Positions 3,222 to 56,281 of a stretch of 64,000 bases of DNA are shown here, one piece after another. The notes under the pieces were generated by a model. The model had not been told where the DNA came from. It saw nothing but the letters and a program-made list of their open reading frames with translations, and made no database searches. The DNA is taken from positions 1 through 64,000 of the forward strand of contig CAITDI010000011.1 of NCBI GenBank assembly GCA_903891095.1, written 5' to 3'. The translations under genes were made by a program, and so were the position numbers. The DNA is from an uncultured bacterium. GTDB lineage: Bacteria; Planctomycetota; Phycisphaerae; Phycisphaerales; SM1A02. Each line of letters begins with the position of its first letter. Positions within the stretch are counted from its first letter, which is position 1.

Positions 3222-3305
3222 AGATGGGATCGGCGCTTCGCGCCGCGGAGAACCGAGATGTGGTGTTCCGCGACCACTACCTGCTTCGCAGGAAGTGGCA
3301 CCCGC
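3222..3305 (-). repeat. family B interspersed palindromic repeat, copy 1
   Basis: Read on the minus strand this copy starts GGGTGCCACTTCCTGC, then GCAGGTAGTGGTCGC, and ends in a GGCGC-gaa-GCGCC hairpin about 50 bases later. The same order of two short hairpins recurs at 3358, 56006 and 56186. This copy is inverted with respect to copy 2, so the pair forms a head-to-head unit between the protease and lutC. Confidence 0.7.
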
Positions 3306-3357
3306 GCCTGCGGCGCGGCGACCGGCGCGGTCGTTCGCCGCGGTCGTCACATCAACC

Positions 3358-27791: not shown

Positions 27792-28394
27792 GTGCTCAAG
27801 ATTCTCTCTGGTGACTATCGCTCACGCGTCCTCCTCACGCCCGACGGCGAGGACCGCACGCGCCCGATGACGGCGCGTGTGAAGGAGTCGGTGTTCGCGA
27901 TGCTGCATGGCTGGTTCAAGGACGCGCGCGTCCTCGACCTGTTCGCGGGCGTCGGGACCGTCGGCCTCGAGTGCGCGAGCCGCGGCGCGAAGGAAGTCGT
28001 CTGCATCGAGCGCGACCGCGACGTGTTCCGCTACCTCGAGCACAACATCGCCGCGCTCAAGGCGGGCGAGCGCGTGACCGCGCTGCAGGCCGACGCGCTC
28101 GGCCCGACCGCGCTCGCGCGCAGCCCGAAGCCCGTCGACCTGGTGTTCATGGATCCTCCGTACGCGCTCATGGTCGAGGAGGCGACGCGCAAGCTCGTCC
28201 TCGCGCAGGCCGCGCGCACGCGCACGCTGTTCGCCGACAAGGGCTTCCTCGTGCTGCGCACGCCGGTCGATCTCGTCGAGCCCGAGCGCTCGATCCCCGG
28301 GTTCGTCGGCCCCGAGAGCCACCGCTACAAGGACGACATGTGGGTCTATCTCTACATGCCGGAGAGGGTCGACGCGGAGAAGGCGGATGCCTGA
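27792..28394 (+). CDS. rsmD: 16S rRNA (guanine(966)-N(2))-methyltransferase
   Basis: RsmD has 200 residues and uses S-adenosylmethionine to methylate G966 of 16S rRNA. It shows the family opening LKILSGDYRSRVL, TRPMTARVKESVFAML, the SAM-binding loop VLDLFAGVGTVGLECASRG, the acidic tip CIERDRD and the catalytic DPPY in LVFMDPPYA. The GTG at 27792 is chosen because it matches the family N terminus and follows a TACACT box by 6 nt. The hydrolase gene overlaps its end by 8 bp (ATGCCTGA), so the two are coupled. The usual partner coaD is not adjacent. Confidence 0.92.
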   Translation: MLKILSGDYRSRVLLTPDGEDRTRPMTARVKESVFAMLHGWFKDARVLDLFAGVGTVGLECASRGAKEVVCIERDRDVFRYLEHNIAALKAGERVTALQADALGPTALARSPKPVDLVFMDPPYALMVEEATRKLVLAQAARTRTLFADKGFLVLRTPVDLVEPERSIPGFVGPESHRYKDDMWVYLYMPERVDAEKADA

Positions 28395-29169
28395 GCTCGG
28401 CGGCGGCCTGCCCGCAAGCGTGCGCGAGCGCGCGAGGTTCGAGAGCTTTGCGGGAGTGCCTGCGCTGGTCGTGCATCCTGGCTTCGCGTCGGACGGCGCG
28501 CTGCACGGCGAGCGCGCGCCGGTCCTGCTGTGGATGCACGGACGCACGGCGAACAAGGAGCTCGATCCCGGGCGGTTCCTGCGGCTGATGCGCGCGGGCA
28601 TCGCGACGGTGTCGGTCGATCTCCCCGGTCACGGCGCGCGGCACGACGACGCGCTGCAGCAGCCCGAGCGCACGCTGGAGTTCGTCGAGCAGATGGCGCG
28701 CGAGATCGACGCGGTGGTCGAGGCGATGCTCGCGACCGGCTGGTTCGACGACACGCGCATGGCGATCGGCGGCATGAGCGCGGGCGGCATGTCGACGCTG
28801 ATCCGGCTGTGCAGCGCGCATTCGTTTCGCGCGGCGTGCGTCGAGTGCACGACGGGTTCGTTCGCGTGGCAGCGGAACCGCGCGATGTACGACGCGCAGC
28901 GCGCGACGCGGCTCGATCCGATCCAGCATCTCGACGGCTGGCGGGCGATCCCGCTGCTTGTCCTGCACAACGAGCTGGATGCGTGGGTCGCGGTGGATGG
29001 CCAGCGTGAGTTCGTCGAGTCGCTGAGGGCGCGCGGGCTTGCGAAGGACGTCGAGATGCACGAGTACGGCGAGACGGGCGCGCCGTACGAGCACTCGGGG
29101 TTCGGCCGGTTCGCGAGCGACGCGAAGGACCGGCAGACGAACTTTCTCGTGAAGCATCTGCGCGCGTAG
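28387..29169 (+). CDS. alpha/beta hydrolase (dienelactone hydrolase/prolyl oligopeptidase-like)
   Basis: This is an alpha/beta-hydrolase-fold protein of 260 residues, cytoplasmic with no signal peptide. The oxyanion strand is PVLLWMHGRTANKE, the nucleophile elbow is GGMSAGGM (Ser), a possible acid is in LHNELDAWV, and the catalytic His is probably in the terminal EHSGFGRF. The SVDLPGHGARHDD segment is typical of acyl-peptide or ester hydrolases. The substrate is unknown. The ATG at 28387 overlaps the rsmD stop codon, so it is co-translated with rsmD. After its stop comes a 14-bp tandem repeat and a pair of family A palindromes. Confidence 0.8.
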   Translation: MPELGGGLPASVRERARFESFAGVPALVVHPGFASDGALHGERAPVLLWMHGRTANKELDPGRFLRLMRAGIATVSVDLPGHGARHDDALQQPERTLEFVEQMAREIDAVVEAMLATGWFDDTRMAIGGMSAGGMSTLIRLCSAHSFRAACVECTTGSFAWQRNRAMYDAQRATRLDPIQHLDGWRAIPLLVLHNELDAWVAVDGQREFVESLRARGLAKDVEMHEYGETGAPYEHSGFGRFASDAKDRQTNFLVKHLRA

Positions 29170-29178
29170 CGGTGGGCG

Positions 29179-29262
29179 GGGACTGATGACGCGTGGTTGA
29201 TGAGCCGTGATTGATGACTCGTGATCGATGATCCGTGGTTGATGATTCGTGGTTGATGATTC
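29179..29262. repeat. 14-bp tandem repeat, six units
   Basis: Six units of 14 bp follow the hydrolase gene, with consensus gtggttgatgattc. The last two are identical and the first is the most diverged. The unit is unrelated to the family A palindromes that follow, but its period equals that of the repeats at 16816 and 38819. Confidence 0.75.
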
Positions 29263-29282
29263 AAGGCCTTGAACGTACGCAG

Positions 29283-29386
29283 CCGTGAATGCCCGCAGGC
29301 GTGAGCCTGCGGCACGGTTGACGTGGGGGTCGGTGGTGACTTTTGCGTCTTGTGTTCCGCAGGCTTCCGCCTGCGGGCATTCACGG
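29283..29386. repeat. family A interspersed palindromic repeat, inverted pair
   Basis: The left copy (29283-29315, reversed) contains CCGCAGGC-gtga-GCCTGCGG. The right copy (29351-29386, forward) reads GTTCCGCAGGCTTCCGCC followed by TGCGGGCATTCACGG and contains CCGCAGGC-ttcc-GCCTGCGG. The outer 17 bases of the two copies are exact reverse complements, so the whole 104 bp is a large inverted repeat. It lies between the ends of two convergent genes (hydrolase and esterase). Related copies are at 38501-38826. Confidence 0.8.
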
Positions 29387-29438
29387 CTTTGGGTAACTCA
29401 CGGCTTTGGGACAGGCGTGGTGTTGCGCCCGCGCGCCG

Positions 29439-32400
29439 CTACTTCGCTGGCTCGATCTCCACGTCGCAGAAGGTCAGCGCGGCGATGCCGTTTGCGCCGC
29501 GGATGAGGCGCTTCTGCTCCCAGCGGTCGCTGTCGACATACTTGATCGTGCGCGCGTCGGTCTTCGACTTGAGCTTGAGGCGCACCGTGCTTCCGTCGCC
29601 CGAGCTCGCCGCAACCTCGGCCTTCTTGCCGCCGAGGTGGAACTCCTCCGCGCACTCCGGCCGCCACACGACGGGCTGGTCGAACTCGAGCACGATCTCG
29701 TCGCACGCGGCGCTCGCGAAGCGCGCGCGCAGGATGTTCGGCGGCGTGATCGATCCCTGCGGCTTGACGCCGTAGTTGTCGCGGTCGACGAGCGGCGCGA
29801 TGAGCTTCGCGAACTGCGCATATCCCGCGGCGGGGTAGTGGCAGCCGCCCGGCGGCTCGATGCCGAGCGTCGACATCACGCTCATGTTCGAGAACGCCGC
29901 GGGCAGCGTGCGCTGCACCTCGCGCAGCCGGTCGTCGGAATCGTCGCGGCCCATCGCGCACGACTTCGGCCAGATCTGGAACATGTAGTAGTGCTGCACG
30001 TTGGGGAACGCGAGCTTCCACGCCGCGACCATGTCGAGGAAGTACGCTCGGTAGGTCTCGAATCCGAAGCCGCCCGTCGGGCCGTCGGAACCCTGGTCGT
30101 TCTCGCCCTGGTGCCAGAGCACGCCGCGGATGCCGTCCTCGAGCCGCGCCTGATGCACGCGCCAGAGCAGGCGGCCGTGGATCGTGTCGCGGTTCTCGGG
30201 GTTCGCCTCGTCGCGCTGGTGCTGGTCGACGCGCGTGCCGCCGACCGCGCCGTTGATGATGCAGATCGGGACATGCTGCGTGTCGACGAGATGCTGCGCG
30301 AGGTCGTAGCCCCAGTAGCCGATCGAGAGCTGGTCGTCCTTGCCGCGGCGCACGGCGTTGCCCCAGCGCACGCTGCCGGGATTTCCGCCGGTCGCGCCGA
30401 AGCTGCGGATCCACTCGTTCGAGTCGTCGAACTTGCCCTCGCCCCAGTCGGTCGAGACGGCGTTCGACTGGCCTTCGATGATGTACGCGTCGCCGCAGAC
30501 GATGTTGCGGACGGTGTCGATCACCGTGTCGTGCGCGCCGTACTTGGCGGTCGAAGTCGTTCCGAACTCGACGGTGTAGTGAACGAGCCCAGGCTTGAGC
30601 GTCGCGCTGAGCGCGTAGCGGCGATCGGCGGCGAGCGTCGCGCGCTTCTCGGCAAACGGCTTGCCGTCGGCGAGCACGCGCAGGAACACGCCGTCGATCG
30701 CACCAGGCACCGCGCCTGCCGATTCCGCAAGCACGCCGTTGTAGGCGAGCGTCGCTTCGTTCTCGTCGTCGCGCGCGTAGAAGGCGTTCTCCTCGGGCTT
30801 CTCGTCGGGGCCAGGCGTGCGATGCACCCATGCTTCTCGAGTGGCGTCCTGCGAAGGCTCGCGCACCGCGATCGTCGCGCTCCTCGTGATCGGCGTGCCG
30901 CCGTTGTCGATCGTCGCGGTGACCGTGAGCGTGCCGCTGTTGAGCGCGCGCGAGAGCCGCAGCGCGCCCGCCGAATCGCCGCTTGCCGCGTCGATCTCCT
31001 TGCGCACGGACATCGGGCCCGTCGTCCACGCCACGCGGAGTTCGCCCGCGGACTGGCCCTTGAGCGCCGCGAGATTGCGCACGCGCGGCTCGATCTTGAT
31101 CGGCTTGCGTCCGTCCCACGATGCCGGCGCGACGAGCTCGAACTGCGGATCGGCGACGGCCTCCGCGATCTTGATCGCCGCCGACTTGGTCCTGACGCCA
31201 TCCGCGAACACGGCCTTGCACTCGAGCGTCGCGAGTTCATCGCCGCTCACGCGGCCTGCGTCGACCGAACACGAGAGCCGATCGGTCGCGACCACCGTCT
31301 CGCGGCCGCCACGCTTGAGCGTCCAGGTGATCTTCTGCGCGCCGTTCGCGCGTGCGGTCACGGTGGCCTTCGCGCCTTCCTTGATCGTGAGCTTCGCGTC
31401 GGAAAGCGTGAACGCATCGCGTGCACTCGCGCCCGCACGCGCATCCGCACGCGCATCCATCGCGACGATCGGCCCGACCGCCGTCTGCATCGGCTTCTGG
31501 TTCTCGTACTCGAGCTTGATCCAGTCGGCCGAGCGCGCGACGCTCGCGATGCGCACCTCGTCGACATCGCCGACGAAGTTGTAGTTGCCGTGCCAGCCGC
31601 CGATCCAGAGCGCGGAGGTGTCGGGGATCTTGACCTCGGGCGTCGACGCGCCGTCGAGAACGCCGTTGATGTACACGCGCGAATCCTTGGCCGAATACGT
31701 GTGCACCACGTGGTACCACTCGCCCGTCGCGAGCTTGCTCTCGGCGTCGACATCGGCGAAGTAGCACTGGATCGCGATGCGCGGCGGACTGAGGAAGTTC
31801 ATCATCACCTTCGCGGGGCGCTTCTCCTGGCCCCACGCGACGACGGTGCCGTTCACGCGCTCGGCGCGGAACCACGCGCTCGTCGACATCGGCCCCATGC
31901 CCTTCGGATAGGTCGTGATGTCGCTGCCCGCGAACACGCCCTGGCCGCCCGCGAGATGGCGCGCGTCGCCCACGATGCCGCGCGTCGAGGTCGTGCGCTC
32001 GTCCTTGGACTCGACGCTGCCCGTGTCGTCGGCGACGGGCTCGTTCATGTGCCACACGCTGCAGAAGCCGTTGCTTTCGTTGAACACCGCCTTGCCGTCG
32101 GACGCTGGCGCGGCGCCCGCGTTGCCCCAGTGGATGCGCAGTTCCTGGCGCGCGTTGCCGGCGATGTGGGGAATCCGAACCCAAATCGTCGCGCTTCCGA
32201 CCGTGGCGTTCCACTCCTCGATGCGATACGCGAGCGGCGCGCCGTCGGCGGCGGAGAAGCGGATGTCGTCGCCGTTCGCCTTGCACTGCGCGAAGTCGAG
32301 GAAGTCGCCGTTCAGACGCACGAGCAGCGGAAACCCGTCGATCGACGCCGAAGCGGGGAGGTTCGCGCCATCGGGCGTCGTGAGGATGTTGATCGTGCCG

Positions 32401-32480
32401 TGGTGCTGCCACGCGGCGTAGTCGTCGGCGAGCGGTGCGGGCGAACCAAGCGCGAGGGCGGCGATGAGCGTGGCGTGCAT
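29439..32480 (-). CDS. exported multidomain sialate O-acetylesterase-like protein
   Basis: This 1,013-residue exported protein starts at the ATG at 32480 (MHATLIAALALG signal, short). Domains in order: a DUF2341-like beta domain (about 20-125, NGDDIRFSAADG), a concanavalin/LamG-like domain (about 130-335, GEWYHVVHTYSAKDSRVYING), Ig-like or linker regions (about 350-560), and a SASA/SGNH esterase domain (about 660-930). The esterase nucleophile lies in IIEGQSNAVS (near residue 672), with the downstream LWHQGENDQG block near 788 and CHYPAAGYAQ near the C-terminal His. SASA enzymes remove O-acetyl groups from sialic acids or polysaccharides, so a role in extracellular glycan use fits. Catalytic residues appear intact. 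It diverges from the zinc-ribbon gene. Confidence 0.85.
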   Translation of the reverse strand: MHATLIAALALGSPAPLADDYAAWQHHGTINILTTPDGANLPASASIDGFPLLVRLNGDFLDFAQCKANGDDIRFSAADGAPLAYRIEEWNATVGSATIWVRIPHIAGNARQELRIHWGNAGAAPASDGKAVFNESNGFCSVWHMNEPVADDTGSVESKDERTTSTRGIVGDARHLAGGQGVFAGSDITTYPKGMGPMSTSAWFRAERVNGTVVAWGQEKRPAKVMMNFLSPPRIAIQCYFADVDAESKLATGEWYHVVHTYSAKDSRVYINGVLDGASTPEVKIPDTSALWIGGWHGNYNFVGDVDEVRIASVARSADWIKLEYENQKPMQTAVGPIVAMDARADARAGASARDAFTLSDAKLTIKEGAKATVTARANGAQKITWTLKRGGRETVVATDRLSCSVDAGRVSGDELATLECKAVFADGVRTKSAAIKIAEAVADPQFELVAPASWDGRKPIKIEPRVRNLAALKGQSAGELRVAWTTGPMSVRKEIDAASGDSAGALRLSRALNSGTLTVTATIDNGGTPITRSATIAVREPSQDATREAWVHRTPGPDEKPEENAFYARDDENEATLAYNGVLAESAGAVPGAIDGVFLRVLADGKPFAEKRATLAADRRYALSATLKPGLVHYTVEFGTTSTAKYGAHDTVIDTVRNIVCGDAYIIEGQSNAVSTDWGEGKFDDSNEWIRSFGATGGNPGSVRWGNAVRRGKDDQLSIGYWGYDLAQHLVDTQHVPICIINGAVGGTRVDQHQRDEANPENRDTIHGRLLWRVHQARLEDGIRGVLWHQGENDQGSDGPTGGFGFETYRAYFLDMVAAWKLAFPNVQHYYMFQIWPKSCAMGRDDSDDRLREVQRTLPAAFSNMSVMSTLGIEPPGGCHYPAAGYAQFAKLIAPLVDRDNYGVKPQGSITPPNILRARFASAACDEIVLEFDQPVVWRPECAEEFHLGGKKAEVAASSGDGSTVRLKLKSKTDARTIKYVDSDRWEQKRLIRGANGIAALTFCDVEIEPAK

Positions 32481-32549
32481 GAGGCGCGCAGCGTCCGCGA
32501 TTTTCGCACCGTTGTGCGCGCGGGCTTGTGGTCGATGCGTGAATTTCGC

Positions 32550-32555
32550 TAGGTT
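32550..32555 (+). promoter_or_regulatory. -10 box (TAGGTT) for a leaderless start
   Basis: TAGGTT, 6 nt (agggcg), ATG at 32562. A TTGTGG hexamer at 32526-32531 gives a possible -35 with an 18-bp spacer. It lies in the divergent region with the esterase gene. Confidence 0.6.
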
Positions 32556-32561
32556 AGGGCG

Positions 32562-33854
32562 ATGCACCAATGTCCCGCCTGCAGCTACCGCCTCGACGCG
32601 CTTCCCGGCGTGCCGCGCGTGCAGTTCGGCGAGTTCAACCACGATGTCGCGTGCCCCGAGTGCGGCTTTGTGATTCGCAAGGGCCAGCGGGTCGTGGTCG
32701 GCAGCACCGTGGCTGCGGCGGTCGGCGCGCGGATGAGGTGGTCGCAACTCGCGGGCGCGCTGGTCGGCATCCTGTTCACGCTCAACTGGAGCATCCAGGG
32801 TCTGTACGCCAAGGCCAAGGTGTTCGGCGCGACGGGCGACTGGAGCTTCTCGTGGCGCGATCCCGTGCAGTTGCTGTTCATCGTGGGATTCGCGTTCATC
32901 GCGCGCTGGCTGTATCGCATGCTGTTCTCAGCGAAGTACGAGCCGAAAGCCGGCGTCGAGTCGAATGCCGCGTGGATCATCGAGCCAGGCGCGCTGCGCG
33001 TGCTGCGTGCGGCCAAGATCGGCGAAGCGGCCGAGCAGGTGGCGGTGCTGTCTGCAGGCGAGATTCGCACCATCCGCGCGGTCGAGCTGCCGCGCGTTGC
33101 GTCGGCCACGAGGCTGCCGATCCAACTCGCGGTCTATCGCGATTCCGAGAAGGACACGCCGCACGTGATCCACGTTTCCGCGCAATGCATCGCCGACGAA
33201 CTCGCGACGAGCCTGCTCGCGAGCGTGCGGCGCGAGATGCGCGCCGAGGAGCTTCGCGCGCGCGAGGCCGCGCCGATTCTTGCGGGCCAGCCGATCGTGG
33301 TCCGCGGCGTGCCGTTCGAACCGATGGATGTGGGCGAGGTGCCGTCGCCGTTGCGCGGGTGGAAGGGCACGGCCGTTCGCTTCGCGGGTCCGGCGCTCGG
33401 AATGGTGTTCTTCTTCGGTGTGATGACGGGATTGGGCGCGCGAGCCGGCGGGCAATTGCTTCCGATGATGATCGCGTTGGGTGGGTTCCTGCTGACGTTC
33501 TGGATGGTCGCGCACCTCCGCAGCGTCGCGCGTGAGAAGCGCTCGAGCCGCGCCACCTGGACCTGCTCGCGCGACGGCCTCGTGATCGAGACGAACCTCC
33601 GCCGCTACCTCTTCAAGCGCCGCGAAACCAAGCGTTTCTCGCCGCAGGCCGTGCGCTCGATCGATGTCCGCATGAAGCACGGCGCCGCGTACCTCGAAGT
33701 CTCGTCGGTGCACGAACGCGAGCCCGTCGCGGTGCTCCACCCCGACGACTGGTCGGGCTCCGCGCCTGACACGCTCGCGCAGGCGATGCGCGAGGCGCTT
33801 GGCGAATCCTCGCCTGCGAACGCTTTGGCCGGACGCGCGTCGCAGGTACAGTGA
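32562..33854 (+). CDS. zinc-ribbon membrane protein of unknown function
   Basis: This 430-residue protein opens with a zinc-ribbon-like pair CPACSY...CPECGF (residues 4-7 and 32-35). Two hydrophobic segments follow near residues 65-80 (LAGALVGILFTLNW) and 105-120 (VQLLFIVGFAFIARWLY), and two more near 285-330 (GPALGMVFFFGVMTGLG, LLPMMIALGGFLLTFWMV). Cytoplasmic soluble parts lie between and after these. The C-terminal part (TWTCSRDGLVIETNLRRYLFKRRETKRF) resembles a PH-like domain. No enzymatic motif is visible and I do not recognise a family. The gene stands alone with its own -10 box, and the alpha-toroid gene starts 5 bp after its stop. Confidence 0.75.
   Translation: MHQCPACSYRLDALPGVPRVQFGEFNHDVACPECGFVIRKGQRVVVGSTVAAAVGARMRWSQLAGALVGILFTLNWSIQGLYAKAKVFGATGDWSFSWRDPVQLLFIVGFAFIARWLYRMLFSAKYEPKAGVESNAAWIIEPGALRVLRAAKIGEAAEQVAVLSAGEIRTIRAVELPRVASATRLPIQLAVYRDSEKDTPHVIHVSAQCIADELATSLLASVRREMRAEELRAREAAPILAGQPIVVRGVPFEPMDVGEVPSPLRGWKGTAVRFAGPALGMVFFFGVMTGLGARAGGQLLPMMIALGGFLLTFWMVAHLRSVAREKRSSRATWTCSRDGLVIETNLRRYLFKRRETKRFSPQAVRSIDVRMKHGAAYLEVSSVHEREPVAVLHPDDWSGSAPDTLAQAMREALGESSPANALAGRASQVQ
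33847..33852 (+). promoter_or_regulatory. -10 box (TACAGT) for a leaderless start
   Basis: TACAGT, 6 nt (gacccg), ATG at 33859. It overlaps the last codons of the upstream gene. TTTGGC at 33824-33829 is a possible -35 with a 17-bp spacer. Confidence 0.6.
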
Positions 33855-33858
33855 CCCG

Positions 33859-35007
33859 ATGCTGATCCCGCTCGCTGCGCTGCTCATCTCGATCGCTCCG
33901 CCCACGGAAGTCGCCGCGAAGCCCGCGCTCCCAACCGACGCCGAGGCGATCACCGCGGGCATCGCGCGCATCGTCGCGCTGCAGGAGAAGGGCCCGGGCG
34001 CCGATGTCGCCGCCGAGTGGCCCTACGAAGGCGTCTACCGCGTGGGCGGCAACATTCCGTACGGATATCGCGTCGGCGGCACTTCGATCGCGTGTCTCGC
34101 GCTGATGAAGGCGCCGGGCTTCGCGAGCGACGCCGCGCGCAAGGACGCGGTCGCGCGCGCGATCGACTTCGTCGCGAAATCGAAGGACGAGCCGCTGCTC
34201 TCGCCCGCGTACGACGGCGGCTACGACGTGCGCGGCTGGGCGCATTGCTACGGCCTGCGTTTTCTCATCGCCGCCAAGAAGGCGAACGCCGTGAGCGACG
34301 CGCAGAAGCCCGCGGTCGACGCGGCGATCGCGTTCTACCTCGACGCGCTCGCGAAGACCGAGATCCCGCAGGTCGGCGGCTGGCAGTACGCGCGCGGTCC
34401 CGCGCTCGATGCGCCGTGCGCGACCTCGCCGTTCATGACCGCGCCGTGCCTGATGGCGCTCGTCGAGGCGAAGGACGCGGGGCTCGCGGTGAGCCCCGAA
34501 CTCATCGCGCGCACCGTGCATGCGCTCGAGCTCACGCGCGGCGAGTCGGGCTACGTCGCCTACAACGCGCAGAAGCAGACGCGCGACGACACCAGGCAGA
34601 TCCCAGGCGCGATCGGCCGCATGTGCGCCGTCGAGGTCGCGCTCGCGCACGCGGGCAAGAAGGACGAGAAGCGGCTGCGCTTCGCGGTCGACCGGTTCTT
34701 CGAGTTCTGGCCCGAGCTCGAGAAGCGCCGCAAGAAGTCGGGCACGCACCTGCCGCCGTACAACGTCGCGCCGTACTACTTCTACTACGCGTTCGAGCAC
34801 GCGGCCGCGGCGATCGAGATGTTGCCGGAGGCGGACCGGCCTGCGCTGCGCGCGAAGTTCCGCGAGACGCTGTTCAAGTCGCGCGACGCGGATGGGACAT
34901 GGAACGACCGCGTGTTTGCGCGCAGCGCGAGCTTTGGTACGGCGATGAGCGTGCTGGCGTTGATGGAGGCGGGGGAGGCACTCGTCCCAGCGGCGCCTAC
35001 GAAGTAG
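33859..35007 (+). CDS. exported alpha-toroid (terpenoid cyclase/prenyltransferase fold) protein
   Basis: This 382-residue protein has a short signal sequence (LIPLAALLISIA). The body is made of paired-helix repeats with Gly-rich turns, as in the alpha/alpha-toroid fold of squalene cyclases and planctomycete prenyltransferase-like proteins. Examples are IARIVALQEKG, the GGTSIACLALMKAPG block, YDGGYDVRGWAHCYGLRFL, VGGWQYARGP and FARSASFGTAMSVLALMEAGE. No DxDD or other cyclase catalytic motif was found, so enzymatic cyclization is not claimed. Such proteins are frequent, function-unknown exported proteins in this phylum. The start at 33859 is supported by the box at 33847. Short 15-bp repeats follow the stop. 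Confidence 0.75.
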   Translation: MLIPLAALLISIAPPTEVAAKPALPTDAEAITAGIARIVALQEKGPGADVAAEWPYEGVYRVGGNIPYGYRVGGTSIACLALMKAPGFASDAARKDAVARAIDFVAKSKDEPLLSPAYDGGYDVRGWAHCYGLRFLIAAKKANAVSDAQKPAVDAAIAFYLDALAKTEIPQVGGWQYARGPALDAPCATSPFMTAPCLMALVEAKDAGLAVSPELIARTVHALELTRGESGYVAYNAQKQTRDDTRQIPGAIGRMCAVEVALAHAGKKDEKRLRFAVDRFFEFWPELEKRRKKSGTHLPPYNVAPYYFYYAFEHAAAAIEMLPEADRPALRAKFRETLFKSRDADGTWNDRVFARSASFGTAMSVLALMEAGEALVPAAPTK

Positions 35008-35020
35008 CGCGACACGAAGT

Positions 35021-35071
35021 CGCGCCGCCCAGAATCGCGCCGCCCAAAGCCGCGCCGCCCAATCTCGCGCA
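35021..35071. repeat. 15-bp tandem repeat after the alpha-toroid gene
   Basis: About 3.4 units of cgcgccgcccaaagc-like sequence start 13 bp after the stop codon at 35007. The bases around the stop (cgaagTAGcgc) resemble the flank of the first unit (cgaagTCGcgc), which suggests local duplication. The rest of the gap to cheX at 35242 holds the cheX ribosome binding site and nothing else recognisable. Confidence 0.6.
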
Positions 35072-35241
35072 GCACATAGGGCATCCTCCCCTCTTTGCCC
35101 CCATCGCCACACCACGCGCGAAGTCGCTCGCGCCGTCCGCCGATCCCTGCGTGTCCCATCAATCGGACACGCGCATCGTGCAGGAATGGCCCTGCCCGCA
35201 GCAATCTCGACGTTGGCCCGAAGTCGGCTCTAGGGAGGCCC

Positions 35242-35760
35242 ATGGACGCACAGCAAATCACCTCGTTCGTCGTCAGCACGCACCAAGTCTTCTCGACGAT
35301 GCTCTCGCTCGCCGTGACGGCGGGAAAGCCGTACACCTGCTGCGCGGTTCCCAAGTTCGAGAACGAGGTCAGCGGCATCATCGGCATGTCAGGCGACATG
35401 CAGGGCATGGTCGTCCTCTCGTTCCCCACGTCGACCGCGAAGAACGTCATCCGCGCCTTCACCGGCATGGACATGGAGCCGTCATCGCCCGACTTCGCCG
35501 ACGCCGTCGGCGAGCTCGTCAACATGATCTCGGGCGCGGCGAAGGCCAAGTTCGAGGGCAAGAACGTCTCGATCTCGTGCCCGTCGGTCGTGATCGGCAA
35601 GGGCCACAAGGTCCAGCAGCCGAGCGACGCGGTGTGCATCACGATCCCGTTCGAGTGTCCGGCCGGCGCGTTCTCCGTCGAGGTCGCGATCAAGAGCGCG
35701 AAGAGCGCCGCCAATCCCGCAAATTCCAATCAGCACGGCGCCGCGGCCAAGGCCGCGTGA
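35242..35760 (+). CDS. cheX: CheX family CheY-P phosphatase
   Basis: This 172-residue protein belongs to the CheC/CheX/FliY phosphatase family that dephosphorylates CheY-P. The catalytic ExxN motif is present in GELVNMISG (Glu and Asn), preceded by MSGDMQGMVVLSFP, the usual beta-strand pair. Only one ExxN helix is visible, as in CheX, which dimerises. The start is set by a strong AGGGAGG at 35232-35238. The next gene, 27 bp downstream, is a stand-alone CheY-like receiver, its likely substrate, followed by a FapA-like gene. No cheA, cheW or receptor gene is in the window. The C-terminal 15 residues are Ala/Asn-rich. Confidence 0.9.
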   Translation: MDAQQITSFVVSTHQVFSTMLSLAVTAGKPYTCCAVPKFENEVSGIIGMSGDMQGMVVLSFPTSTAKNVIRAFTGMDMEPSSPDFADAVGELVNMISGAAKAKFEGKNVSISCPSVVIGKGHKVQQPSDAVCITIPFECPAGAFSVEVAIKSAKSAANPANSNQHGAAAKAA

Positions 35761-35787
35761 TCCACGCCTGCACCACAGGAGCCCATC

Positions 35788-36159
35788 ATGAAAGTCATGC
35801 TTGTCGACGATTCGAAGACCATGCGCACCATCCAGCGCAACATCCTGATGCAGCTTGGCTACAAGGAGATCGAGGAGGCGTGCGACGGCCAGGACGCGCT
35901 GTCGAAGGTCGCGGGCTTCGGCCCCGAGCTGCTCCTCGTCGACTGGAACATGCCCAACATGGACGGCATCACGTTCGTCAAGACCTATCGCGCGCAGGGC
36001 GGCAAGAGCCCGATCGTGATGGTCACCACCGAAGCCGAGAAGACCCGCGTGGTCGAGGCGATCAAGGCGGGCGTCAACAACTACGTCGTCAAGCCGTTCA
36101 CGCCCGACTCGCTTTCGCAGCGCATCAACGAGACGCTGTCGCGCACGAAAGCGGCGTGA
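35788..36159 (+). CDS. cheY: CheY-like single-domain response regulator
   Basis: This stand-alone receiver domain has 123 residues. The acidic pocket is Asp7/Asp8, the phospho-acceptor is Asp52 (LLLVDWNMPNMDG), the switch residues are Thr80/Thr81 (VMVTTE) and Lys102 is in VVKPF. All key residues are intact, so phosphorylation is expected, but the kinase is not encoded here. With no output domain it should act by protein binding, as in motility control, but it could equally serve a type IV pilus or exopolysaccharide pathway. A CAGGAG ribosome binding site precedes the ATG. It is sandwiched between its probable phosphatase cheX and a DUF342 gene. Confidence 0.92.
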   Translation: MKVMLVDDSKTMRTIQRNILMQLGYKEIEEACDGQDALSKVAGFGPELLLVDWNMPNMDGITFVKTYRAQGGKSPIVMVTTEAEKTRVVEAIKAGVNNYVVKPFTPDSLSQRINETLSRTKAA

Positions 36160-36201
36160 GCCAGGCCCGCGCGCAGCATGAAGACGGCGGGAGGTTCGCC
36201 A

Positions 36202-37677
36202 ATGCCCGAAATCGCAACTGAACGCCTTCCCTTTGTCAGGCTCCTCGACAACGGCCGAAAGGCCGTCCTCGAGATTCCATCGAATTCGGCCCCGGAGCTC
36301 GTAACTGAGGACGCGCTCCTGGGTCTCGTCCGTGAACGCGGAGTCCTTGTCGATCGCGCGGTCGAACAAGCCATTCGCGCACTCGCGGCACGACACAAGT
36401 CGCGGCCGGCCGGAGACGCCACCGACATCGAGAGCGCCATCGCCGAGTGGGTTCCACCCGCCCACGGCGAGGACGCGCGCATCGATTGGGTCGAGCGATT
36501 CCGTCCGGACGCGGCAACCAGCGACGGCGCCGACGGCGACGCCGACACCGCCACGCCCGTCGACCACTACAACCGCGTCAAGCGCGTCAAGGTCGCGGCG
36601 GGCGAGGTGCTCGGCAAGCTCGTGCCGCCCGGCGAAGGCGTCGACGGACGCGATGTCAGCGGCCGCTCGATCGCCGCCAACCGCGGGCACAAGCTCGCGC
36701 TCCAGCCCGACGGAAGCGTGCAGGTCGAGGCCGACGGCTCGATCCGCGCGCTCAAGGACGGCGTGCTCTCGCTCGCGCGGCTCAAGCTCGCGATCGTCGA
36801 CACGATGGAGGTCGAGGGCGCGGTCGACTTCTCGACGGGCAACATCGACTTCGTCGGCAGCGTCAAGGTTTCCGACGGCATCCGCGACAACTTCACGCTG
36901 CGCGCGACCGGCGACGTGACCGTGCGCGGCATGGTCGAGGCGTCCGATCTCATCGTCGGCGGCGACTGCGTGTGCGAGCGCGGCGTCGCTGCGCGCGGGC
37001 GCGGGCATCTGCTCGTCGACGGCGCGCTCGAAGGCGCGTACCTCAACGGCGTCTGCGGACGCGTGCGCGGTTCGGTGACGGTCGCGCGCGAGATCGTCGG
37101 CTGCGAGCTCCTCGTGGGCGGCGACGTCCGCGTCGAGCGCGGCTCGATCGTGGGCGGAACGCTGGTCGTCGGCGGCGCGCTGCGCGCTGCGTCGATCGGC
37201 ACCGAGGGCGGCGCGAAGACCGTCATCCGCATCGGCGGCATGCCGATCCAGCTCGCGAAGGCGGCCCGCATTTCCCAGCTCGCAAAGGAGCTCGCGACGC
37301 GCGTGGCGCCCCTCGAAGAACGGCAGTTCGCGATCACCTCAAGCGGCGAGAAGGCGACCGCCGCCGAGAAGGAGAGCCTGACCGAGCTCGCGTTCGAGAT
37401 CGCCGAAGTCCGCCGCCGCCTGCGCCTGCTCGAGGAGAAGCGCATCGCGCTCCTCGTCGAGGCGGGCGCGTCGCGCGTGGTCAAGGTCGACGTCTCGAAG
37501 GCGATCCATGCGGGCACGACGATCCTCGTCGGCAACCGCGAGGCGAAATTCACGAGCACGCTCAAGGGCCCGCTCACGCTCGGCTGGGACGAGAACCGCA
37601 ACCTGCAGTTCCGCCTCGCGGGCGGGCGCGTGCAGGAGCTGCGCGACGTGGCGAGCGTGCGCGAAGTGGCGGCGTAG
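36202..37677 (+). CDS. FapA family protein (DUF342)
   Basis: This 491-residue protein contains the flagellar assembly protein A (FapA, DUF342) domain. A variable N-terminal region is followed by AGEVLGKLVPPGEGVDGRDV. Then come beta-helix-like repeats from about residue 185 to 345 (VEGAVDFSTGNIDFVGSVKV, RATGDVTVRGMVEASDLIVGG, VGGDVRVERGSIVGGTLVVGG). A coiled-coil and beta C-terminal part comes last. FapA-like proteins are linked to polar organelles and motility in several bacteria, with unclear biochemistry. The start at 36202 is preferred over the ATG at 36178 because GGGAGG lies 7 nt upstream of it. It follows cheX-cheY and is probably in the same transcription unit, suggesting a joint signalling or polarity role. 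Confidence 0.85.
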   Translation: MPEIATERLPFVRLLDNGRKAVLEIPSNSAPELVTEDALLGLVRERGVLVDRAVEQAIRALAARHKSRPAGDATDIESAIAEWVPPAHGEDARIDWVERFRPDAATSDGADGDADTATPVDHYNRVKRVKVAAGEVLGKLVPPGEGVDGRDVSGRSIAANRGHKLALQPDGSVQVEADGSIRALKDGVLSLARLKLAIVDTMEVEGAVDFSTGNIDFVGSVKVSDGIRDNFTLRATGDVTVRGMVEASDLIVGGDCVCERGVAARGRGHLLVDGALEGAYLNGVCGRVRGSVTVAREIVGCELLVGGDVRVERGSIVGGTLVVGGALRAASIGTEGGAKTVIRIGGMPIQLAKAARISQLAKELATRVAPLEERQFAITSSGEKATAAEKESLTELAFEIAEVRRRLRLLEEKRIALLVEAGASRVVKVDVSKAIHAGTTILVGNREAKFTSTLKGPLTLGWDENRNLQFRLAGGRVQELRDVASVREVAA

Positions 37678-37693
37678 GAAGGGGCGCGTTCGC

Positions 37694-37699
37694 TATCAT
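37694..37699 (+). promoter_or_regulatory. candidate -10 box (TATCAT) of ispD
   Basis: TATCAT lies 8 nt upstream of the ispD ATG at 37708, immediately after the FapA-like gene. It implies a leader of one or two bases at most. Confidence 0.5.
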
Positions 37700-37707
37700 C
37701 GCCGCCC

Positions 37708-38493
37708 ATGCGCATCGGAGTCATCATCGCGGCGGCAGGCAAGAGCACGCGTTTCGGCGAGGGCGACAAACTCTCGCAGGATCTCGGCGGTCGGCCCGTG
37801 CTGCTGCGCACCGCGGAGGCGTTCACCAAGCGTGACGAGGTCACCACGATCATCGTCGCGGGTCCGCCGGACGACATCGAGGGTTTCCGCCAGCGCTTCG
37901 GGCCTGCGCTCGGGTTCAACGGTGCGCGCATCGTCGAAGGCGGCCGCATCGAGCGCTGGGAGTCGATCAAGCTCGCGCTCGACGCGATGCCCGACGACGT
38001 GACGCACATCGCGGTCCACGACGGCGCGCGGCCGTGCATCGGCAACGAGCTGCTCGACCGCGTGTTCGCGGCGGCGCGCGTGGTGCCTGCGGTCGTGCCG
38101 GGCGTCCCCGTGCGCGACACGCTCAAGCGCGTGACCGAGGAGTCGTTCAGCGCGAGCGAGGACGACGCGGTTGCGGACATGATCCTCGGCGACGTGGGCA
38201 AGTCCGCGACCAGCGGGCGGCGCGTGACCGAGACGGTCTCGCGCGCGAACCTGCAGGCCGTGCAGACTCCGCAGGTGTTCGACGCGGCGCTCTTGCGGAA
38301 GGCCTACAAGACGGTGGAGCTGTCGGGCACGACCGACGACGCGAGCGTGATCGAGCGGATGGGCGAGCCGGTGCTCGTGGTCGAGGGCGATCCGCGGAAC
38401 ATCAAGATCACGTCCGTCGACGACCTCGCGCTCGCGCGCGCGATCATGAACATCGCGCCGCCGGCGGACCGCGCGGCGCATCTGCGGTTCTGA
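37708..38493 (+). CDS. ispD: 2-C-methyl-D-erythritol 4-phosphate cytidylyltransferase
   Basis: IspD has 261 residues. It couples CTP with 2-C-methyl-D-erythritol 4-phosphate in the non-mevalonate isoprenoid pathway. The nucleotide loop AAAGKSTRFGEGDKLS, the VHDGARP motif, TPQVFD and NIKITSVDDL are present. It is about 25-30 residues longer than most IspD, owing to an acidic insertion after VRDTLKRV (TEESFSASEDDAV...TSGRRV) in the loop near the dimer arm. ispF is not adjacent. The gene has its own -10 box and is followed by 400 bp of repeats. Confidence 0.93.
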   Translation: MRIGVIIAAAGKSTRFGEGDKLSQDLGGRPVLLRTAEAFTKRDEVTTIIVAGPPDDIEGFRQRFGPALGFNGARIVEGGRIERWESIKLALDAMPDDVTHIAVHDGARPCIGNELLDRVFAAARVVPAVVPGVPVRDTLKRVTEESFSASEDDAVADMILGDVGKSATSGRRVTETVSRANLQAVQTPQVFDAALLRKAYKTVELSGTTDDASVIERMGEPVLVVEGDPRNIKITSVDDLALARAIMNIAPPADRAAHLRF

Positions 38494-38500
38494 CGTCCTG

Positions 38501-38826
38501 CGTTCCGCGGGCTTCCGCCCACGGGCATTCATGTCACTGGTATTCGGCAACTGGTGGTCGTGAGCCGGCCACCGTGAGCCTTCGAGGGACATGAATGCCA
38601 CGAAAGCCATGAATGCCCGTCAGGCGTAAGCCTGCGGCACGGGTTGCGTGAGCCTTCGATGATCCGACTCCGACGTCCAACGTTCCGCGGGCTTCCGCCC
38701 ACGGGCATTCATGTCACTGGTCGTCGGAAGCTGGTGGTCGTGAGCCGGCCACCGTGAGCCTTCGATGACCCGACTCCCACATCCAACGTTCCGCGGGCTT
38801 CCGCCCACGGGCATTCATGTCACTGG
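38501..38826. repeat. family A palindromic repeats, four copies
   Basis: Three forward copies (38501, 38681, 38787) read CGTTCCGCGGGCTTCCGCCC then ACGGGCATTCATG and TCACTGG. One reverse copy (38608-38641) reads CATGAATGCCCGTCAGGCG then TAAGCCTGCGGCACG. The second and third forward copies belong to a larger 106-bp duplication that includes GCTGGTGGTCGTGAGCCGGC. These repeats fill most of the 408-bp gap between ispD and the Feo partner gene, and no open reading frame in it looks like a gene. Confidence 0.8.
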
Positions 38827-38874
38827 TTGTCTGTCACCGGTTGTCTGTCACCGGTCGCCGGTCACTCGTGGTCG
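38819..38874. repeat. 14-bp tandem repeat, four units
   Basis: Four 14-bp units of gtcaccggttgtct type start at 38819 and overlap the end of the last family A copy. They lie 3' of the small Feo partner gene (stop at 38902, minus strand). Confidence 0.7.
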
Positions 38875-38901
38875 CGATCCCTCGGCTCTCGCCGCACACG
38901 C

Positions 38902-39120
38902 CTACGGCTTCACCCGCTTGCCGCCGATCGTCAGATCGACGTGCTTCGGCCTCGGCGGCTTGTTCGCCGCTTCGCCGCTCGGGCAGCCCGGGCAGCTCGC
39001 CGACTTCTTCCCGCGCTTCGGGATGAACGGCTTCGCCACCGCGTAGATCGCCGCCAGCATCAGCGCGGTCGCCACCCAGAACTGCCAGTCGTCGACCGGA
39101 AGACTCGCAATCATCATCAT
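38902..39120 (-). CDS. small membrane protein downstream of feoB (FeoB-associated type)
   Basis: This 72-residue protein has one transmembrane helix (WQFWVATALMLAAIYAVAKPF), a basic stretch PKRGKK, a cysteine pair CPGC and a basic tail. The layout matches FeoB-associated Cys-rich membrane proteins. These small proteins are encoded next to feoB and are thought to replace or assist FeoC, with the cysteines possibly sensing iron or redox state. Its ATG at 39120 overlaps the feoB stop (ATGA); two further ATG codons follow at once, so initiation could shift by one or two residues. It is too short to be certain of the family. Confidence 0.75.
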   Translation of the reverse strand: MMMIASLPVDDWQFWVATALMLAAIYAVAKPFIPKRGKKSASCPGCPSGEAANKPPRPKHVDLTIGGKRVKP

Positions 39121-41102
39121 GCGGCTCCTGCGGCGATCACCGCCGCGTGCGTGATCCAAGCGAGCACATACGCCACGCCCGACATCCAGCCGAACTGCAG
39201 CGCGGCCCATTTCCACGAGCCCGTCTCGCGGCGCGTGACCGCGAGCGTGGGCAGGCACTGCATCGCGAGCACGTAGAACACAAGCAGCGCCGCACTCGTC
39301 GGTGCGTCGAAGAGCAGCGTTCCGTCGGCGCGCCTGGCCTGCGCGAGCTGGTCCGCGACCTTGCGGTCGTCGTCGGAATCGCCGCTCGCGACCAGCACCG
39401 TGACCGTGCTGCGGAACACCTCGCGCGCGAGGAAGCTCGTCATCACCGCGACCGTCAGGCGGTCGTCGAGGCCGAGCGGCGCGAACACCGGCTGCATCGC
39501 GCCGCCGATTCGGCCTGCGAACGAATACTCCTGCTGCGCGCGATGCTCGAGGTTCGCGGCCTCGGCGCGCAGCGCGCTCGCTTCATCCGTCTTGCCCGCG
39601 GTCGCAGCCTCGGTCGCACGCGCCTCGATGCGCACGGCTTCCGCGGGCGTCTGCGCCTTGGGATACGCGCTGATCCACCACATCACCACGCAGATCGCGA
39701 GGATCACCGTGCCCGCGTTCTTGAGGAACACCACCGCGCGGTCGTAGGTCGTGAGCAGCGCGCTGCGGAGATCGGGCACGCGGTAGGGCGGCAGCTCGAG
39801 CACCATCGGGCGGCTCTTTCCGCGCAGGATCGTCCGGCGGAACAACAGCGCCGTCAGCAGCGCCGCGATCGCGCCCAGCGCGTAGCAGCCCGCGAACGCG
39901 AGCCCCGCGAGCAGCCCCGAGTGCGGGAACAGGATCGACACCAGCAGCACGTACACGCCCACGCGCGCCGAGCAGCTCATGAACGGCGCGACGAGGATCG
40001 TCGTGAGCCGGTCCTTGGGGTCGGGGATCAGCCGCGTGCTCATGATGCCGGGCAGCGCGCACGCGTGGCTCGAGAGCAGCGGCACGAACGCCTGGCCAGG
40101 CAGGCCGAAGCGGCACATGATGCGGTCCATCACGAACGCGGCGCGCGCGAGATAGCCCGTGTCCTCGAGCAGCGCGAGCAGGAAGAACAGCAGGCAGATC
40201 TGCGGCAGGAACACGACCGTGCCCGACACGCCGCCGATGATGCCGTCGACGAGCAGGCTCGTGAGCGCGCCCGCAGGCAGCGCGCCCGCGAGCGTCGTGC
40301 CGATCCATGCCGACGCGGATTCGATCAGCTCCATCGGCACGCGCGCAAGCCGGAAGATCGTGAAGAACATCAGCGCCATCGCGGCGACGAACACGATGCC
40401 GCCGAGGACGGGATGCGTGAACGCGGCGTCAAGGCGATCGGTGAGCCGGTCCGCGTCGCTGCCGAGCGTGTTCGGTCCGCCGACGATCGCGGTCGCGGTC
40501 TGGTCGATCCACTCGGGCGCGAGGCTCGCGGCCACGACCTGCGGCGACGGCTCGCGCGACGCGTGGATCGCGGCGATGAGCGGCTCGATGCCCGTGCCTT
40601 CGCGGCCGTTGGCGATCACGCACGGAACGCCGAGCGCAACCGACAGCCGCTGCGCGTCCACCGAAAGCCCGCGCGCGCGCGCGAGGTCGGTCATCGTGAG
40701 CGCGACCGCGACCGGGCGACCGCTCGACGCCACCGAACGAAACAGCTTGAGCCCGCGCGACATGTTGGTCGCGTCGATCACGACGAGCATCGCGTCGGGC
40801 ATGCAGCCGGCGAGCCGCCCCGCCAGGCAGTCGCGGCAGAGCCTCGACTCGGGCAGCTCGAGGTCGATCGCGTACACGCCGGGGAGGTCGACAAACTCGA
40901 TGATGGAATCGCTGCCCGCGCCGTCGGCCACGCACGAACCGATGCGCGCCTCGACGGTGGAGCCCGCGAAGTTCGCGGTCTTGGCGCGCACGCCGCAGAG
41001 GCGGTTGAACAGCGAAGTCTTGCCGACGTTCGGATTGCCGACCATCGCGACGCGGGTCGGCGGGGAAGCGGGGGCGTTGGCGGCGCTCATGCCGGGGCTC
41101 AC
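39117..41102 (-). CDS. feoB: ferrous iron transport protein B
   Basis: FeoB has 661 residues with a cytoplasmic G domain followed by the iron-permeating membrane domain. G1 is GNPNVGKTSLFN, switch region STVEARIG, G3 DLPG, and G4 TMTD in place of NxxD. The Feo core motif SSHACALPGIMSTRLI and the gate segment MSCSARVGVYVLL are present, with about eight to ten membrane segments. It is shorter than E. coli FeoB. A charged coiled-coil stretch (AVRIEARATEAATAGKTDEA) lies between helices. The start could be GTG at 41102, overlapping the feoA stop as GTGA, or ATG at 41090. It imports Fe2+ and is coupled to feoA upstream and a small partner downstream. Confidence 0.95.
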   Translation of the reverse strand: MSPGMSAANAPASPPTRVAMVGNPNVGKTSLFNRLCGVRAKTANFAGSTVEARIGSCVADGAGSDSIIEFVDLPGVYAIDLELPESRLCRDCLAGRLAGCMPDAMLVVIDATNMSRGLKLFRSVASSGRPVAVALTMTDLARARGLSVDAQRLSVALGVPCVIANGREGTGIEPLIAAIHASREPSPQVVAASLAPEWIDQTATAIVGGPNTLGSDADRLTDRLDAAFTHPVLGGIVFVAAMALMFFTIFRLARVPMELIESASAWIGTTLAGALPAGALTSLLVDGIIGGVSGTVVFLPQICLLFFLLALLEDTGYLARAAFVMDRIMCRFGLPGQAFVPLLSSHACALPGIMSTRLIPDPKDRLTTILVAPFMSCSARVGVYVLLVSILFPHSGLLAGLAFAGCYALGAIAALLTALLFRRTILRGKSRPMVLELPPYRVPDLRSALLTTYDRAVVFLKNAGTVILAICVVMWWISAYPKAQTPAEAVRIEARATEAATAGKTDEASALRAEAANLEHRAQQEYSFAGRIGGAMQPVFAPLGLDDRLTVAVMTSFLAREVFRSTVTVLVASGDSDDDRKVADQLAQARRADGTLLFDAPTSAALLVFYVLAMQCLPTLAVTRRETGSWKWAALQFGWMSGVAYVLAWITHAAVIAAGAA

Positions 41103-55850: not shown

Positions 55851-55867
55851 CGCGCGCCACGCGTTGT

Positions 55868-56003
55868 CGCCGCCCGAAGGGCGGTACGAACAACCGCGGT
55901 CCCCACGCCGACCGCCGCCCGAAGGGGCGGTACGAACAATCGTGGTCCCCACGCCGATCGCCGCCCGAAGGGCGGTACGAACAACCGTGGTCCCCACGCC
56001 GAC
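55868..56003 (+). repeat. 45-bp tandem repeat, three units
   Basis: Three units of 45-46 bp (55868, 55913, 55959) each begin CGCCGCCCGAAGGGCGG and continue TACGAACAAYCGYGGTCC then CCACGCCGA. A fourth start at 56004 runs into family B copy 3. A further single unit lies at 56140-56184 before family B copy 4. The hairpin CCGCCC-gaa-GGGCGG is in every unit. With the family B copies this accounts for most of the 500-bp gap 55851-56350. Confidence 0.8.
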
Positions 56004-56005
56004 CG

Positions 56006-56110
56006 CCGCCCGAAGGGCGGGTGCCACTTCCTGCAAAGCAGGTAGTGGTCGCCGCGCACACGAAGTCACACGGGTGCGGCGCGAAGCGCCGGTCCGACAT
56101 CACCAGTGAA
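56006..56110 (+). repeat. family B interspersed palindromic repeat, copy 3
   Basis: This copy starts with CCGCCCGAAGGGCGGGTGCC, then ACTTCCTGC-aaa-GCAGGTAGTGGTCGC and a GGCGC-gaa-GCGCC hairpin near 56089-56101. It matches copy 1 in order and sequence. The end is approximate. Confidence 0.75.
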
Positions 56111-56185
56111 CATCTCCTTCTGAACCCGCGCGGCGTCGATGGCCGCCCGAAGGGCGTTACGAACAACCGCGCGCCCCACGCCGAC

Positions 56186-56281
56186 CGCCGCCCGCAGGGC
56201 GGGTGCCACTTCCTGCAAAGCAGGTAGTGGTCGCCGTGCGCATGAAGTCACGCGGGTGCGGCGCGAAGCGGCGATCCGCTC
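56186..56281 (+). repeat. family B interspersed palindromic repeat, copy 4
   Basis: The same core as copy 3 (GTGCCACTTCCTGC-aaa-GCAGGTAGTGGTCGCC) is followed by a GTGCGGCGCGAAGCGGCG arm. It lies directly before the promoter of the BRCT gene. Confidence 0.75.

Follow-up and report, generated by a model that had tools for sequence, protein, structure and literature searches.

The stretch analyzed here (the window) comprises the first 64 kb of contig 11 from the genome of an uncultured Phycisphaerales bacterium, which amounts to 3.6 Mb in 131 contigs. Two gaps of the window, both located between convergent genes, contain six copies of a short dispersed hairpin repeat, which we refer to as family A. 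In the window copies the core of family A is a GC hairpin with a 4-base loop that is followed by GGGCATTCA, as described in an initial annotation of the sequence, and all six copies listed there were recovered at their places by a covariance model (R1) that was built from an alignment of family A copies (A1). The search with the 27-mer core and up to three mismatches yielded five matches in the window, compared to 0.00 expected from 100 shuffles, whereas the sixth copy (at 38608) has an extra stem base and was missed by this pattern. For the pair at 29283, which had been annotated as a 104-bp inverted repeat between convergent gene ends, the analysis confirmed two 35-nt arms that are 91% complementary and lie 38 nt apart. 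As single-stranded DNA (ssDNA) this pair folds at -44.4 kcal/mol on the plus strand and at -43.5 kcal/mol on the minus strand (z -9.3 and -11.7, respectively).

Alignment A1 consists of 70 distinct family A copies. It was derived from 104 element-search matches, of which 17 were filtered out; the remaining 87 gave 69 distinct copies, and one filtered-out row (L051:200-234) was restored. Five further filtered-out rows with a GGGTGCC foot look real (L052 at 7926 and 8101, L057 at 3574, L058 at 6414 and 14555) and the others look spurious; copies with this foot are under-represented in A1. Each element is composed of a 5' tag, located directly before an 8-bp hairpin with a C/G foot, which mostly carries a tetraloop. 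The tag reads AATGC in most copies of the present genome and GAGTGC or GGGTGC in sister species, and the A1 rows show GA[AG]TGCC, or a sequence near to it, at the foot. The strand of an element is defined here as the strand that reads GAATGCC-hairpin. On this strand 99.6% of the 560 hairpin cells from the 70 rows are paired, compared to a mean of 95.3% in shuffled alignments (0 of 500 as high), and in slid controls only 30-36% of the cells pair. Changes on both sides of a pair occur in 36 cells, distributed over three of the eight pairs (0 of 500 shuffles as high). Two main forms alternate, namely the X form, TGAATGCCCGTGGGC-GGAA-GCCCGCGGAAC, and the Y form, TGAATGCCCGTCAGGC-GNRA-GCCTGCGGCAC, the latter with a bulged base. 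GNRA loops of seven types are present in 63 of the 70 rows, and 19 rows show a U.G wobble in the X form, always on the same strand. A known structured RNA was rejected, as none of the three loci submitted to Rfam (L006, L007, L041) gave a match above the gathering score.

Genome-wide, family A proved to be a hairpin family that is dispersed between genes, forms inverted pairs, and prefers convergent gene ends, in line with the initial annotation. With R1, at least 105 copies were identified at E<1e-3 (150 of 9697 candidates scored; four more matches between E 1e-3 and 0.1 were left out), and the 22-mer core with up to three mismatches occurs 57 times genome-wide, with no match for the reversed control. 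A position relative to genes could be assigned to 85 copies (105 minus six outside the examined stretches and minus 14 at contig or stretch ends). The copies are not randomly spread inside genes, since 83 of these 85 are intergenic and the remaining two overlap the predicted 5' end of a gene. The 105 copies fall into 53 clusters, and 22 of these contain a single copy. Neighboring copies are inverted to each other in 40 of 52 steps (20 “+-” and 20 “-+”), and 19 of the 20 “+-” steps, in which the tags lie outside, measure 60-89 nt. Based on gene calls made within the analysis, copies occupy 22 of 73 convergent, 17 of 242 codirectional, and 2 of 74 divergent gaps (convergent versus divergent, P=3.5e-6), or 22 of 48, 17 of 98, and 2 of 49, respectively, when only gaps of at least 100 nt are considered. 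Most of the examined stretches were chosen around copies, which inflates the overall occupied share, whereby no bias among the gap classes is expected. Family A thus shows several of the features by which repetitive extragenic palindromic (REP) elements, bacterial interspersed mosaic elements (BIMEs), and REP doublets forming hairpins (REPINs) are recognized: a palindromic hairpin in many copies, an extragenic location, and inverted doublets or mosaics with preferred spacing. The features of the two gaps are listed in Table 1.

Table 1. Family A elements, the units they form, and flanking genes in the two gaps of the window (ORF, open reading frame).
Feature	Position	Strand	Basis
Upstream flanking gene, first gap, 260 aa; matches in 12 of 15 congeners	28387..29169	+	
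REPIN-like inverted doublet, 104-nt unit	29283..29386	.	Arm complementarity, R1, folding
Family A element, TGAATGCCCG CAGGC-GTGA-GCCTG CGGCAC, left arm of inverted doublet	29284..29318	+	R1 55.2 bits
Family A element, loop GGAA, right arm of inverted doublet	29351..29385	-	R1 57.1 bits
Convergent flanking gene, first gap	29439..32747	-	
Upstream flanking gene, second gap, 261 aa; matches in 11 of 15 congeners	37708..38493	+	
Mosaic (BIME-like) array, X and Y elements, with three copies of the 97-nt direct repeat D7	38489..38871	.	
Family A element, X form, stem U.G wobble on the GAATGCC strand, loop GGAA	38499..38533	-	R1 56.8 bits
Family A element, Y form, bulged T in 5' arm, loop GTAA	38608..38643	+	R1 55.3 bits
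Family A element, X form, inverted doublet with 38608-38643	38679..38713	-	R1 56.3 bits
Family A element, X form	38785..38819	-	R1 56.3 bits
Small convergent flanking ORF, second gap, at most 118 aa, start uncertain	38902..39258	-	ORF list and congener conservation

The small ORF that closes the second gap overlaps a gene called at 39117, which is where the gene caller placed the next gene. A degenerate, approximately 16-nt tandem repeat (TGATGAnnCGTGGT..) adjoins the first pair at 29186-29265, and similar short tandem arrays, some of them with the tag (TTGCATGAATGCCCG), adjoin other copies and occur in congeners as well. Elsewhere in the window, a long CAG/CAA-rich run of 9-15-nt repeats (43966-44286) is located inside the predicted gene 42787-44835(+).

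In order to compare both gaps with their orthologous counterparts, the gap ends in congeners were extrapolated from tblastn matches. The gap at 38494-38901 has 408 nt in the present genome versus approximately 26, 42, 37, 85, 28, and 0 nt in G009, G005, G013, G010, G008, and G007, respectively. In G014 the two genes are 224 nt apart, without the family A core and with another GGTGCC palindrome in between. The second gene was not present in the fetched flank of G001, G015, G002, and G004 (Phycisphaera sp. isolate RI_241), whereby G004 has one of its own hairpins after the first gene. The gap at 29170-29438 spans 269 nt here versus approximately 31, 27, and 0 nt in G008, G002, and G009, and the gene pair is separated by 111 nt in G006 and by 169 nt in G003. 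The family A core is absent from this gap in all five genomes; for the other seven loci no second gene of the pair was found. Because the genes around the second gap are separated by only 0-85 nt in six of seven congeners, the family A elements look like insertions, that is, like lineage-specific additions.

The location at convergent gene ends would also suit functional RNA elements, either bidirectional terminators, as proposed in the initial annotation, or stabilizers of mRNA 3' ends, which were spread or kept for this function. The enrichment in convergent gaps, the distance of copies to the closest predicted gene end there (median 74 nt), and the GNRA tetraloops together with the same-strand U.G wobbles, as RNA stability would favor them, speak for such a role. 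However, no T-tract follows directly after the family A hairpins, as would be expected for an intrinsic terminator. A terminator scan of 28300-39300 yielded seven sites compared to 5.4+/-2.0 in shuffles, and the only site inside the two gaps is the spacer stem at 29320-29349 and not a repeat hairpin. There is also no significant bias of orientation relative to transcription, neither in codirectional gaps (13 copies in sense and 18 in antisense orientation; P=0.47) nor in convergent gaps, where the closest gene end served as the reference (18 in sense and 32 in antisense orientation; P=0.06). Moreover, the orthologous convergent gene pairs found in congeners lack the family A core, the family has a narrow distribution (see below), and most G004 copies carry a TTCA and not a GNRA loop. 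The bias toward GNRA loops was not relied on as a sign of an RNA role, since in congeners the loop on this strand reads TTCA or GAA. On the basis of the element-free orthologous gaps, the terminator scan, and the missing orientation bias, we rejected an intrinsic bidirectional terminator as the main role, and consider RNA elements at gene ends in general to be improbable. The preference for convergent gaps also fits a tolerance of insertions away from promoters. A side effect of the elements on RNA ends is possible.

Among 121 genomes searched, the present one included, R1 matches were detected in only three others, all of them congeners (G003, G004, and G009). A strict pattern gave no match in genome_contigs and viral_contigs, where near-identical records may be left out. 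With a looser pattern, 19 matches were obtained in the present genome and 100, 31, 21, 10, 6, 2, and 1 in G004, G009, G003, G007, G005, G014, and G015, respectively, compared to 0 or 1 per genome (1 in G004) for the reversed control; the single match of G015 forms no hairpin. Most of the G004 copies have the sequence TGCCCGCATGC-TTCA-GCATGCGGAAC or TGCCCGCAGGT-TTCA-ACCTGCGGAAC and are often organized in alternating arrays. A linking form between both genomes is given by TGCCCGCAGACGCGAGTCTGCGGAAC from G004 and TGCCCGCAGACGCAAGTCTGCGGAAC from contig 17 of the present genome, which differ in one base, and three G004 sites match R1 at E 1.8e-6 to 3.5e-5. Three G004 copies are located 126-289 nt upstream of the reading frame, as queried, of a REP-associated tyrosine transposase (RAYT) gene (G004:C15). 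Since clusters together with 300 nt on either side make up approximately 1.1% of the G004 genome, this proximity is unlikely to be due to chance. The encoded Y1 transposase passes the NCBIfam model NF047646 (REP-associated tyrosine transposase) with 89.3 bits at a cut-off of 80 and shows a weak match to the TnpArep structure PDB 4er8 (E=0.0064). It contains HVH, an HUH motif, as well as the motif YIHLNPVRAG. Over 3137 nt, the RAYT locus is identical to WGMP01000029.1. In G003 and G009 (L085, L091), the outer stem CCGCAG..CTGCGG is kept and the apex is replaced; one replaced apex in a sister species is longer and includes an inner GGCGAAGCC hairpin.

Overall, family A is very probably a REP/REPIN family, that is, a population of non-autonomous elements spread as ssDNA by a RAYT (TnpA_REP, a Y1/HUH transposase). 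The hairpin is conserved, the elements form inverted doublets with an intergenic and convergent-gap bias, they are present in a lineage-specific manner at orthologous gaps, and a related family is located next to a RAYT gene in a congener. A miniature inverted-repeat transposable element (MITE) of an unrelated DNA transposase, for which the TGAATGCCCG ends would be the terminal inverted repeats of an element of about 100 nt, would likewise account for the 104-nt inverted repeat at 29283 and for the lineage-specific copies. However, 22 of the 53 clusters are singlets, 32 of the 52 neighbor steps are not of the “+-” type, each arm is a conserved hairpin by itself, and the related family of the congener adjoins a RAYT, so that a MITE appears very unlikely.

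Several observations weigh against the assignment to a REP/REPIN family. The number of hairpin pairs changed on both sides is three compared to 2.0 in shuffles (100 of 500 as high), and there are four pair types compared to 5.0 (500 of 500 as high). The canonical GT[AG]G tetranucleotide does not occur at the 5' foot of family A, and in some copies GGCAC follows the hairpin, which places TGCC beside the foot on both strands. The adjacency to the G004 RAYT is a single case in which copies flank the gene on just one side, and the two tested 500-nt flanks of this gene share no 12-mer. Close homology of the doublet spacers between G004 and the present genome, as seen by eye, was rejected, since the spacers proved only modestly alike under a shuffle test: of the 17 own spacers, 7 scored above all 100 shuffles, the one in the 29283 pair was no better than shuffles, and random window 46-mers reach a score of 33 (95th percentile 27) compared to 19-31 for the own spacers. 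G009 and G003, with 31 and 21 pattern matches, either lack a G004-type RAYT or have a weakly matching one (G003, E 5.7e-8), whereby both assemblies are 82-83% complete. In the present genome no G004-type RAYT was detected at E<=1e-5, and no family A member was found flanking a RAYT, the arrangement that defines a REPtron.

The present genome does encode two short Y1/RAYT-like genes, on contigs C117 (L077 6395-7220) and C38 (L078 15250-16055). It would be conceivable that these genes spread family A in trans, as their products match NF047646 at 51.6 and 55.4 bits, their frames are open over about 200 aa, and the C117 gene has a family A copy at a distance of 2.8 kb. Yet both scores are below the curated cut-off of 80 bits, and both genes are flanked by their own, GGCACGTGCC-type palindromes, like similar genes in G004 and G003; a contig end cuts the second. 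While these other palindromes are a further point against the REP/REPIN assignment, they also led us to reject the own RAYT-like genes as mobilizers of family A, a role that we regard as unlikely. GGCACGTGCC is its own reverse complement and was found at 41 places in the examined stretches (82 over both strands). Our gene calls missed the C38 RAYT gene and placed a gene in the sense frame at 4776-6338 of L077, which, judged by its motifs, is S-adenosylhomocysteine-hydrolase-like.

For the order as a whole, 35 RAYT loci of Phycisphaerales were collected (30 fetched loci plus L031, L032, L096, L097, and L101), 33 of which had enough flanking sequence. A 14-mer common to both flanks is present in 27 of these 33 loci compared to none of the 22 control gene loci. 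Among the flank-shared repeats, GTGCC is the most frequent pentamer (21 of 33 loci); without L031, L096, and L097, which belong to another RAYT type, it occurs at 18 of 30 loci, whereas in 1000 length-matched random draws from these loci the average was 7.2 and the highest value 13. Thus, the RAYT-flanking repeats of this order often carry GTGC-C and not the published GT[AG]G. The parts of the literature that were accessible to us report the tags GT[AG]G and CGTC (PMC3733652) as well as CnGA (PMC6006769), and describe the repeats of subclass 2.6 and class 3 as being without GT[AG]G (PMC6006769). A GTGC-type REP tag was not found in a literature search that left most subscription papers outside its coverage, and its novelty is provisional. 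We tentatively suggest, with somewhat more doubt than conviction, that Phycisphaerales harbor an undescribed class of REPtrons with a GGTGC tag and a fast replacement of the hairpin arms, in which the tag and the outer stem are kept, and that family A is an orphaned member whose tag has drifted to AATGC and whose transposase is gone.

Family B-like repeats are present in the window at 3263-3315 and 55861-56278 (CCACTACCTGC-TTC-GCAGGAAGTGGCACC and GCCGCCCGAAGGGCGG). They differ in sequence from family A, as the initial annotation had noted. Because they resemble hairpins beside RAYT genes of congeners (GGGTGCC-ACCACTT.. at L101 of G004 and CACCACCTCCTGC-TTC-GCAGGAGGTGGTG at L104 of G005), they probably constitute, as judged from sequence, another REP family of the same class.

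For the spread of family A as a REP/REPIN family, the doublet of two inverted elements with outside tags and about 60-90 nt from start to start would be the moving unit, as has been proposed for inverted doublets in the consulted part of PMC3116915, and repeated doublets could have given rise to the mosaic array at 38489-38871. By analogy to studied RAYTs, which, according to the portion of PMC8266576 at hand, bind and cut one hairpin strand with unequal contributions of tag, bulge, and loop, a RAYT of this class may recognize the tag and the hairpin of one strand and copy the doublet. Convergent gaps would be favored as insertions there disturb no promoter. The cognate RAYT may have been lost from the present genome, or it may lie in an assembly gap, and the elements would then represent an ageing population, in which the GTGC tag presumably drifted to ATGC in most copies and remains in the five GGGTGCC copies. 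It is uncertain whether the transposase is truly gone, since contig ends cluster near copies (at least eight ends within 300 nt of a copy versus 2.8 expected).

These data point to a REP/RAYT system in a Planctomycetota lineage whose tag differs from the published GT[AG]G. As one genome has retained the elements but no visible transposase, and a congener has retained both, tag recognition becomes testable. The same applies to the fate of a REP population after RAYT loss, which is named as unaddressed in the part of a modelling paper available to us (PMC8049555); if family A is indeed orphaned, it would serve as a natural test of REP population decay in the absence of the RAYT. For annotators, such paired hairpins call for caution and should not be designated as terminators.

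Compared to the REPs of E. coli and Pseudomonas fluorescens, family A differs in its tag, which is AATGC (GAGTGC or GGGTGC in relatives) instead of GT[AG]G, in its hairpin sequence with mostly GNRA loops, and in that no cognate RAYT was found. The G004 gene beside the related elements resembles RAYT/TnpA_REP proteins (NF047646; PDB 4er8) in that it passes the NF047646 cut-off, whereby its product has only remote similarity to characterized RAYT proteins. Tagged palindromes beside Y1 genes, also in Planctomycetes, are likewise described for the GTAG- and CGTC-tagged REPs (PMC3733652) and the class 3 repeats (PMC6006769), for which the consulted sections do not mention the tag GGTGC-C that recurs here. 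As in E. coli and P. fluorescens REPs, BIMEs, and REPINs, family A consists of hairpins approximately 35 nt long that lie between genes, number roughly 100 or more, and are arranged as inverted doublets and as alternating arrays with preferred spacing. It is also divided into subfamilies, X and Y, just as, in the excerpts seen of PMC6006769 and PMC8266576, E. coli has the subfamilies Y, Z1, and Z2.

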